A stretch of DNA of 64,000 bases, taken from positions 124,001 to 188,000 of the forward strand of contig NZ_WTEV01000002.1 in the NCBI RefSeq assembly GCF_009795885.1, written 5' to 3'. This DNA comes from Gilliamella sp. Pas-s25. Its GTDB lineage: Bacteria; Pseudomonadota; Gammaproteobacteria; Enterobacterales; Orbaceae. The notes beneath the pieces are model-generated. The model saw only the letters and a list, made by a program, of their open reading frames with translations. It searched no databases and had not been told where the DNA came from. The stretch's first letter is position 1. The number at the start of each line of letters is the position of its first letter. Shown piece after piece: positions 7,313 through 26,094 of the stretch. Made by a program: the position numbers and the translations under genes.

Positions 7313-9030
7313 AAGACATCCGTTTTTTCGTAAATTGAATCTTCATCATCTTGTTCAGATAAAATAATTCGACCAATAGCCATTATTAATGCTACCGCTC
7401 CATCAATTTTGTTTTCATTCCGCTCTTTTATCGGTCGCACAACATCATCATTACCTGGTGCGTTTTTTCCAACAACGTTACTAATACACCACGTTAAAAT
7501 AGGGTTACCGTCGTGATGAAATCTGCCCGATTGAATGGCCGCTTCCAATTCTTTCATTGGATCACTTAAATTAGTAAAGTTTTGAATAATTGTGACTGGG
7601 TTTAATCCCTCGTCAGCTAAATGGTGTGACAGGTTTGTAGCTCCATGTGGATCTATCGCTGAAACTGTAACTGGATTATCTTTGTTGGACTCAATAGCGT
7701 CATGTAATATTTCACGATAATCAATTTCGGCACCATCAGTAACATCTAGATGCCCAGTATTAATCCATTTTTGAAAGCGTTCTGCTGTTTTTCTATCTTC
7801 GACATCAGCACCGTAAACAGTATCATAGGGCACCCAAAACTTTGGAGAAATACAATAATAATGGCGTTTACCATCAAGAATTCGGTGAAATAGCCTAACG
7901 CCACTGTTCATATCCAATTTTCTGGCCAAATCATATCCACGTATTACTGATTGCCCCTCAAATTGCTCTAACGATAAACTTTTATCTTCGCAGCTTGCCC
8001 AACTGATCATATTAAAAAATGCTGATTTTGCTGAAACCCACACATTTAAATGTTTAGTCTTAAACGTATTGGCCAATCTTGCATTATTAATTGCTCTTTG
8101 TTGTTGGCTTAATAAAAAGTCACGATAAACAGAAATACCTATATTGGGATTTGCTTTTTCAAGTGCGGCAGGATCTGTCCAGTCATCGCCTTCGTCAATC
8201 GTGTAAATAATGCCAAACAGTTCATCATTCGGAACCGTTCCATTTAGCATATCAATCACTTCTCGACGCTTGTCATAACAAGGACCTTCAATGTTATAAC
8301 CTGCGGTTGTAATCGCCCACATCAACGGCTGTTTACGTGCCCCCATACCTGTTAGCATTGTTGTGTAAAGTGAATCCGTATCATGTTCATGATATTCATC
8401 AACAATTGCACAACTCGGAGAAGCACCATCACCAGGATTACCGATCAATGGTTCAAAGCGAGCACCGTCTGCAATTCGACTAAGATTAGACGCATTCACG
8501 TTTATACCAAATGCTTCACAAAGAAGAGGGGTTCGTTTGCACATTAATCGAGCTGGGCGAAAAACTTCCCACGCTTGTTTTTCAGTTGTGGCACCAGAAT
8601 AAACTTCTGCACCAAATTCATTATCCGCAGTAAAGCAGTATAACCCCGCTCCTGCTGAAATTGCCGACTTCCCGTTTTTACGGGGAATTTCAGTGTACAC
8701 TTCACGAAATCGACGTAAATTTGTTTTTTTATGAACCCATCCGAATACACAACAAAATATAAATAATTGCCACGGCTCTAATGTGATCGGCATTCGTTTA
8801 AATGCCCATTCGCCTTTCGTGTGTGGCAATAATTGAATAAATCTACATACTTTTTCCGCAAGATCTTTATTAAATTTATATTTAAACGACTTATTTTTTT
8901 CTTGTTCTAAATCATCTAAATGTCTTTGGCATGCGTCAATTACATATTTACACGCAATAATTTTCCCTTTAACAATATCTCTTGCATATTGATTTGCAGC
9001 ATTAACATTTTTATATGATTTTTTGGCCAT
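7306..9030 (-). CDS. Terminase large subunit
   Basis: A 574-residue HK97-type TerL that pumps and cuts DNA during packaging. The N-terminal ATPase has the Walker A variant [16 protein letters not shown] (RKNGKS) and the Walker B region [16 protein letters not shown]. The C-terminal RNase H-like nuclease includes [20 protein letters not shown] (first acidic residue) and [15 protein letters not shown] (second acidic site). Full length for the Terminase_1 family. It starts two bases after the small subunit and overlaps the small membrane protein. Confidence 0.95.
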
Positions 9031-24842: not shown

Positions 24843-25730
24843 ATGTTTTTCAAAAACCTAATTATTTATCAATTCGATAAAAACAGTAGCATAGAACGTT
24901 TAGACAACAACATGTTAAAAAACATGGCGTTCACACCATGCGGACCAACGGACTCAATTAAAAAAGGTTTTGTTTCGCCAATTAATGACGATGACGTATT
25001 AAAATTACAGGTCCAAGGGCACTCATTATTAAAGTTACGCATTGAAAGCAAACTGCTACCGGCATCTGTTATCAAGAAAAAAACTTCTGAACGAATTGAA
25101 CAGCTTGAACAAAAACTTGGTCGTAGCGCAACTAAGAGCGAAAAACATTGTGTAAAAGATGAGGTTATTATTGACTTATTGCCCGTTGCATTCACAAAAG
25201 ATCAATACGTCTATGTTTGGATTAATGATAAAGATAAATTTATAGCGGTAGAAACAGCCAGCTTTAAAAAAGCCGAAGACGTTCTTGCGCTGATAAGAAA
25301 AGAATTAGGCGCATTAGCACTCAAACCACTTTCTGTTGAAAACAATATATCATTCACGTTAAAAGAATGGGTATGTAATGACAGCACTCCACCTAACTTT
25401 TTTGTACTCAATGATGCAATGTTAGCCGACCCATTAGACGGTAATGGAAAAATAAAACTTATTGACGAAAACCTCACTGCAGAAGAAGTCAAAAGTTATC
25501 TAAATGGTGGGCATGAAATTAAATCGCTATCGTTCTCATATAAACAGCAAACAGTTTTTACAGTAAATACTGAGCTCGTTTTTTCCAAAATTAGCTATTC
25601 ATCTGAAATGTTAGATGAAAATAGCGATATCTCACTAGATGATAAAGCAAAACGAATAGAAGCTGATTTCTTTTTAGTTGCTAATGAACTAGCTAATTTA
25701 ATCAACGATTTTACTAAAGCGGTGCAATAA
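24843..25730 (+). CDS. rdgC: Recombination-associated protein RdgC
   Basis: A 295-residue RdgC, a ring-shaped DNA-binding protein that modulates RecA loading. The start MFFKNLIIYQFDKNSS, the segment PCGPTDSIKKGF (family GW/GF motif after P-G), KTSERIEQLEQKLGRSATKS and DLLPVAFTKDQYVYVWIND are strongly conserved family features. Length equals that of host RdgC. It lies within the phage early operon, so the phage brings its own RecA modulator. A structured RNA candidate follows the stop codon. Confidence 0.94.
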   Translation: MFFKNLIIYQFDKNSSIERLDNNMLKNMAFTPCGPTDSIKKGFVSPINDDDVLKLQVQGHSLLKLRIESKLLPASVIKKKTSERIEQLEQKLGRSATKSEKHCVKDEVIIDLLPVAFTKDQYVYVWINDKDKFIAVETASFKKAEDVLALIRKELGALALKPLSVENNISFTLKEWVCNDSTPPNFFVLNDAMLADPLDGNGKIKLIDENLTAEEVKSYLNGGHEIKSLSFSYKQQTVFTVNTELVFSKISYSSEMLDENSDISLDDKAKRIEADFFLVANELANLINDFTKAVQ

Positions 25731-25734
25731 CGTA

Positions 25735-25911
25735 GGTGGCGTCTGGTATATGCGTTGATAATTAGTGTTAGCAGTGATCTGTTCCTTAGCAGTTAGCCCA
25801 CTAATTTGAAATATACAAGCCAAAATGCTTTCCAGACGGTAGCCACGCCGTTGGCGACAGAGTGGCAATTACTTAATACAACAATAGTTAACTGCTAAGA
25901 GGAGTTTATAA
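25735..25911 (+). ncRNA. Candidate structured leader RNA with RBS-proximal pseudoknot
   Basis: The gap after rdgC shows nested complementary segments. P1: GTGGC+GTCTGG (25736-25746) with CCAGAC (25832-25837) and GCCAC (25842-25846). P2: TATAT (25747-25751) with ATATA (25811-25815). P3: AATTAGTG (25760-25767) with CACTAATT (25799-25806). P4: AGCAG/CTGTT (25770-25783). Pseudoknot: CTTAGCAGTTAGC (25785-25797) with GTTAACTGCTAAG (25887-25899), 13 bp with one G-U, ending exactly beside AGGAG (25900-25904). GCCAC can alternatively pair with GTGGC at 25862-25866, enclosing GCC/GGC. These are hand-found pairings; folding energies were not computed. Confidence 0.6.
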
Positions 25912-26094
25912 TTGGCTAAGTTTATTGAGGTAACAGACCAAGACGGTAAGATGTTAGTTAACATAGAATGCATTATTTATATTCAAGAAACCGATAGTAT
26001 TGAAACAGTTATTGAAATACTTAATGACAAAACCCTTTTTGTTCAAGAGCCATACGAAGAAATAAAATCAAAACTGGAGATTGCTAATGCCTAA
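25912..26094 (+). CDS. FlbD-like small protein, TTG start
   Basis: A 60-residue protein with the layout of FlbD-type small proteins: a strand (FIEVTDQDGKMLVNIECIIY), then ETDSIETVIEILNDKTLFVQ and a closing helix (PYEEIKSKLEIANA). The start is TTG 25912, seven bases after AGGAG; no upstream ATG exists and the first internal ATG would remove the first strand. Its translation start is next to the structured RNA. Role in phage unknown. Confidence 0.65.
   Translation: MAKFIEVTDQDGKMLVNIECIIYIQETDSIETVIEILNDKTLFVQEPYEEIKSKLEIANA

Follow-up and report, generated by a model that had tools for sequence, protein, structure and literature searches.

The gap between rdgC and a TTG-started FlbD-like gene in Gilliamella sp. 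Pas-s25 raises the question of whether it holds a structured RNA and, if so, whether that RNA governs the gene behind it, as proposed in an initial annotation that described a pseudoknotted, possibly switch-like leader RNA after rdgC. In the window (the whole stretch of 64,000 nt analysed), a conserved RNA element lies at 25740-25866 (+), starting 9 nt after the rdgC stop codon. It is laid out as two H-type pseudoknots in series (PK1 and PK2). In PK1, helix P1 (3 bp) interleaves with P2 (6 bp), and the P3 insert that they enclose is variable; next come AAGCC and a short linker, and PK2 is formed by the interleaved helices S1 and S2, of 5 bp each, with the loop GGCGACAGA. The pseudoknotting and the conservation have been borne out, but the base pairs singled out as important have not. 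The features are as follows.

24843-25730 (+): rdgC, upstream neighbour, outside the element (Pfam RdgC, 4e-77)
25740-25866 (+): whole element (PK1, P3 insert, AAGCC, linker and PK2), with homologues by blastn and CM search in IMG/VR, named phages and about a dozen genomes of the genus
25740-25742 (+): P1 5' strand CGU, paired with 25752-25754; many pair combinations among members, 94% paired
25743-25745 (+): loop YUG before P2; U-G invariant in alignment A7
25746-25751 (+): P2 5' strand GUAUAU, paired with 25811-25816; diverse members show covariation at five of the six pairs (arms chosen by complementarity)
25752-25754 (+): P1 3' strand GCG, supported by pairing among members
25760-25767 (+): P3 5' strand AAUUAGUG, the Orbaceae-type insert helix; two-sided changes at three of eight pairs among the 24 sequences of alignment A2
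25768-25798 (+): variable apical region with the TTAGCAGT repeat and the 5' strand of a 13-bp pairing (alignments)
25799-25806 (+): P3 3' strand CACUAAUU (covariation in A2)
25811-25816 (+): P2 3' strand AUAUAC (covariation in diverse members)
25817-25821 (+): conserved AAGCC after P2 (alignments)
25835-25839 (+): S1 5' strand GACGG; 28 different S1 combinations pair in matches not selected for S1
25842-25846 (+): S2 5' strand GCCAC, paired with 25862-25866; 14 combinations
25848-25852 (+): S1 3' strand CCGUU (covariation; the search pattern left S1 free)
25853-25861 (+): conserved pseudoknot loop GGCGACAGA (alignments)
25862-25866 (+): S2 3' strand GUGGC, the 3' end of the conserved element (covariation)
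25887-25899 (+): 3' strand of the 13-bp pairing, part of the downstream module, outside the element and absent from most homologues
25912-26094 (+): FlbD-like gene of 60 aa with a TTG start, downstream neighbour, outside the element (Pfam FlbD, 4e-6)

Homologues of the element were found by blastn against 99 related genomes in about a dozen genomes of Gilliamella and in one genome of another genus of the family, with the similarity confined to about 25740-25867, and prophages from IMG/VR raised the set to 24 distinct sequences when taken together with the genus copies. A degenerate pattern of the pseudoknot alone retrieved about 40 other viral contigs, which share the layout including the upstream YUG-P2 and P2'-AAGCC. 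The element is also carried by the Plectonema/Leptolyngbya phage Lbo240-yong2 (24.4 bits with model R2), the Alteromonas mediterranea plasmid CP004847, Pseudoalteromonas phage XCL1123, and 36 records of Erwinia, Salmonella, Hafnia, and Enterobacter phages; Aeromonas phage Avpx2 gives a weak R2 match (13.7 bits) in whose alignment S1 and S2 can be seen to pair, and H103 a short blastn match only. Each whole phage record holds one clear copy. Among 296 sampled Enterobacterales genomes, a strict pattern matched only in the window's family (nine genomes), and a backwards control pattern matched nowhere in the same set. One diverse query found no match in E. coli genomes, and the searched tRNA region of Felix O1 held no convincing copy. 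The R2 matches in G093, G191, G249, G533, and G567 were discarded because the pseudoknot was not shown in them, with G671/L357 kept, and an exact 16-mer scan of genome contigs returned mostly chance matches. The match in G005 proved to be a CRISPR spacer and not a copy of the element: this 34-nt spacer (L196:7111-7144, contig G005:C20), in an array whose repeats are spaced 61 nt, corresponds to the PK2 part with three mismatches to L055/L060, which indicates that a related Gilliamella targets the phage element.

Selection on the fold is apparent at two levels of divergence. In the 24 distinct sequences, P2, P3, S1, and S2 are 99.1% paired, eight pairs have changed on both sides, and none of 500 shuffles matched the observed paired percentage or covariation score. 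Across 28 diverse members, 97.9% of the pair cells of all four helices are paired (29-46% in sliding controls), with compensatory change on both sides in 15 of 19 pairs and 127 compensatory cells as against 37 in shuffles; in this count, the P2 arms were picked by complementarity with variable inserts cut out, P1 was read by a rule fixed after the sequences had been seen, and S1 and S2 were unselected beyond three fixed pairs. A second pattern, which left all of S1 and the inner part of S2 free, gave 73 distinct matches, and in 57 of these S1 (5/5) and inner S2 (3/3) were perfect, with 28 different S1 combinations. The compensated variants of P2 include GUAUAU/AUAUAC, GCAGAU/AUCUGC, GCACAU/AUGUGC, and GGCGUU/AACGUC, and those of P1 in the wider family include CGU/GCG, GGU/GCC, CAC/GUG, and CCC/GGG. 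S1/S2 and P1/P2 are thus each two interleaved helices kept by compensatory change, the mark of an H-type pseudoknot. G-U pairs are frequent on this strand, which suggests it as the RNA strand, and the element is not coding since the length of the insert ranges from 7 to 84 nt in all three phases. A further stem, CGUC/GACG (A2 columns 1-4 with 115-118), was rejected, as it breaks in divergent members without compensatory change.

Several natural variants of this layout were observed. In the prophages L192/L021, L232, L385, and L389, a csrA-like gene is joined almost directly to PK2, so that the P1-P2-P3 half is missing and the second pseudoknot alone is retained. A copy in L045 (reverse complement, 7697-7781) has P1, P2, and PK2 without P3 and the apical insert, and L194:2463-2599 (-) in genome G038 is a second, partial copy of about the first 26 nt only, which precedes another gene and lies some 1 kb upstream of the complete element. 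A possible third long-range contact would join the GCC of AAGCC to the GGC at the start of the PK2 loop, and the exceptions AAGUC and AGGUC would retain G-U pairing with this GGC.

The element is a conserved double-pseudoknot RNA that is independent of its neighbouring genes and absent from Rfam. At the gathering score, Rfam 15 gave no match for the window element or for 21 diverse loci, in agreement with the earlier statement that no named RNA family fits, and low-stringency scans of Rfam gave chance-level matches only. A hammerhead-like reading of UGAU..GAAA was set aside, having no Rfam match and an unsuitable layout. No published description of the element was found in the literature searched, part of which was covered below full-text depth, and it is not annotated as RNA in the annotated regions inspected, including the well-sequenced Erwinia/Salmonella phage group.

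The neighbourhood of the element is highly variable. The window copy shares the coding strand with a series of early genes and stands where the recombination module gives way to the next genes; neither a promoter nor a terminator belonging to it was identified. The flanks of the homologues change sharply on both sides, with RdgC, other genes read as recombination functions, or CsrA upstream and many different genes downstream (elsewhere terminase, exonuclease, RecT, endolysin, and Mu-like Mor/GemA genes), where names beyond Pfam/PHROG matches are a reading of the sequences. In many copies, a start codon follows after 15-45 nt. In L209, by contrast, no co-directional ORF of at least 60 aa occurs for 2.5 kb downstream, where the ORFs run the opposite way. 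In other cases the neighbours are tRNA genes: in Erwinia phage phiEa21-4 the unannotated element lies between tRNA-Asp and tRNA-Ser inside a tRNA array, it precedes tRNA-His by 5 nt in L357 and tRNA-Arg by 8 nt in L245, in L211/L228 and L301/L348 it comes immediately behind a tRNA, and in L353 behind three tRNAs. The tRNA directly upstream in some copies is tRNA-Trp or tRNA-Arg. A same-strand tRNA lies within 300 nt in 7 of 37 lineages, as against 2.1 expected for random positions in the same loci. Intrinsic terminators occur upstream of some copies or shortly downstream, and the L213 copy (reverse complement, about 8200-8450) lies between two of them (-185 and +19) and looks like a self-contained transcription unit; TTGTCA and TATACT stand just before it, where a promoter scan gave no score.

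The tRNA-like spacing on either side and the lack of a fixed downstream gene fit an RNA gene working by itself better than they fit a leader. The element is accordingly best read, with a probability of about 0.58, as a putative autonomous structured phage RNA that would work in trans and not as a switch of the FlbD-like gene. It would be transcribed with an mRNA or with tRNA clusters and would either survive or be excised in a compact, stable form. Its invariant single-stranded parts (UG, AAGCC, and GGCGACAGA) would mediate the action in trans, probably by binding, while the phage grows, a conserved machine or enzyme of the host. Against this, most lineages (30 of 37) have no adjoining tRNA gene, the copies shortly before a start codon would also suit a cis-acting leader, and the window copy follows closely on rdgC with no identified promoter or terminator.

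Known phage RNAs offer partial parallels to such an RNA gene. GOLLD and ROOL are likewise phage-encoded structured RNAs, often beside tRNAs and of unknown function, but many GOLLD RNAs exceed 800 nt (PMC12286853), whereas the element measures about 80-190 nt and differs from both in sequence and fold; the Rfam models of GOLLD and ROOL did not match the window element or the 21 diverse loci. The rnaC and rnaD of phage T4 (species 1 and 2 RNA) are small stable RNAs of 139 and 119 nt in a phage tRNA cluster, a setting in which the element is seen in phiEa21-4, its relatives, and some other lineages but not in most, nor in the window copy. Their sequences lack the AAGCC/GGCGACAGA core, and an R2 search of the T4 tRNA region found nothing.

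The main rival to an autonomous RNA gene is a processive antiterminator in cis, which would alter RNA polymerase so that phage operons and untranslated tRNA arrays are read through terminators. This explanation is less likely, yet it would also account for the independence from any particular gene, and it has a precedent in the put RNA of HK022, which is encoded near the phage early genes and acts without a phage protein (PMC9378689). The copies in L016, L058, L213, L232, L246, and L250 stand behind an intrinsic terminator and at the head of further genes, a terminator with genes beyond it lies 19 nt downstream in L213/L233, and in phage Lbo240-yong2 the element precedes the terminase genes. 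The phiEa21-4 copy, on the other hand, lies within its tRNA array and not at the head, and the L209 copy has nothing co-directional behind it for 2.5 kb. In addition, put is an RNA of about 70 nt with two stem-loops (PMC9378689), unlike the element, with which it is compared for mode of action only; the HK022 genome (AF069308) has no R1 match and no credible R2 match, the best reaching 8.5 and 8.1 bits (E 3.2 and 4.1) with filters off.

The first suggestion for this locus, a riboswitch or a leader under protein control that acts on translation of the next gene, is very improbable and is contradicted for the family. Its appeal comes from the window copy, in which CTTAGCAGTTAGC at 25785-25797 can indeed pair with GTTAACTGCTAAG at 25887-25899 in a 13-pair run with one G-U, AGGAG adjoins the 3' strand of this pairing, and TTAGCAGT occurs twice in the apical region, all as described; complementarity of the apical loop to the sequence before the Shine-Dalgarno site amounts to 8-13 pairs in the window copy and its near relatives, and in Orbaceae prophages the start codon comes some tens of nt after the element. 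The 13-bp pairing, which had been taken as the key feature, is at chance level across homologues and reaches beyond the conserved element. Runs of 13 pairs arose in 39 of 1000 dinucleotide shuffles (3.9%) and equally often elsewhere in the 64 kb, in 26 of 672 windows of the same size (3.9%), and the 201-nt stretch as a whole is of ordinary stability against shuffles (z -0.35). The full pairing is limited to the window copy and near-identical relatives, and other homologues keep the element without it, an outcome that the initial annotation had itself named as refuting: L054 retains the entire 3' strand with only nine pairs left, and L043 retains the 5' strand with the 3' strand broken. In a permutation test, pairing of the apical loop did not favour the downstream flank of the same copy over foreign flanks (p=0.42; p=0.91 once the window's group was left out), and the candidate pairing between apical loop and Shine-Dalgarno sequence was dropped. 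The apical loops of L039, L044, L053, L056, and L239 hold CCUCC, complementary to Shine-Dalgarno sequences, and no matched pairing with their own flank was found where tested.

The two exclusive folds proposed for GCCAC at 25842-25846 fared unequally, as the pairing with GTGGC at 25862-25866 is the real S2, with compensatory changes, but GTGGC at 25736-25740 lies outside the element; the S1 pseudoknot of GACGG (25835-25839) with CCGTT (25848-25852), absent from the initial annotation, is real. A switch that combines the 13-bp pairing with these folds and governs the AGGAG site is consequently not sustained by the homologues that lack the pairing, nor is a riboswitch for the FlbD-like gene, since the genes behind the element are unrelated and differ from phage to phage. 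No conserved pairing that covers or frees a ribosome-binding site was found in the homologues, whose downstream coding gene is variable or absent, and no consistent association with genes of one pathway, as expected of a riboswitch, was seen among the neighbours examined. Control of one ribosome-binding site is not the common role, given the varying downstream genes, the tRNA genes that take their place in L245 and L357, and the lack of a co-directional ORF in L209. Finally, a DNA-level linker for recombination of phage modules, conserved as DNA and not as RNA, is scarcely credible and as a sole role is refuted by covariation, for although the element marks a mosaic joint with sharply changing flanks and L054 is assembled from parts of different relatives, four helices show compensatory changes with G-U pairs, which require selection at the level of RNA.

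The element is a conserved RNA present once per phage in many unrelated phages. It may tentatively represent an undescribed, widespread class of small phage RNAs with a double-pseudoknot core, acting in trans on a conserved host machine (e.g., the ribosome, RNA polymerase, or an RNase), and this putative class, on the same tentative footing, would span phages of Pseudomonadota and of a cyanobacterium. That the fold is strongly conserved while no neighbour gene is fixed suggests a general task in the growth of phages.
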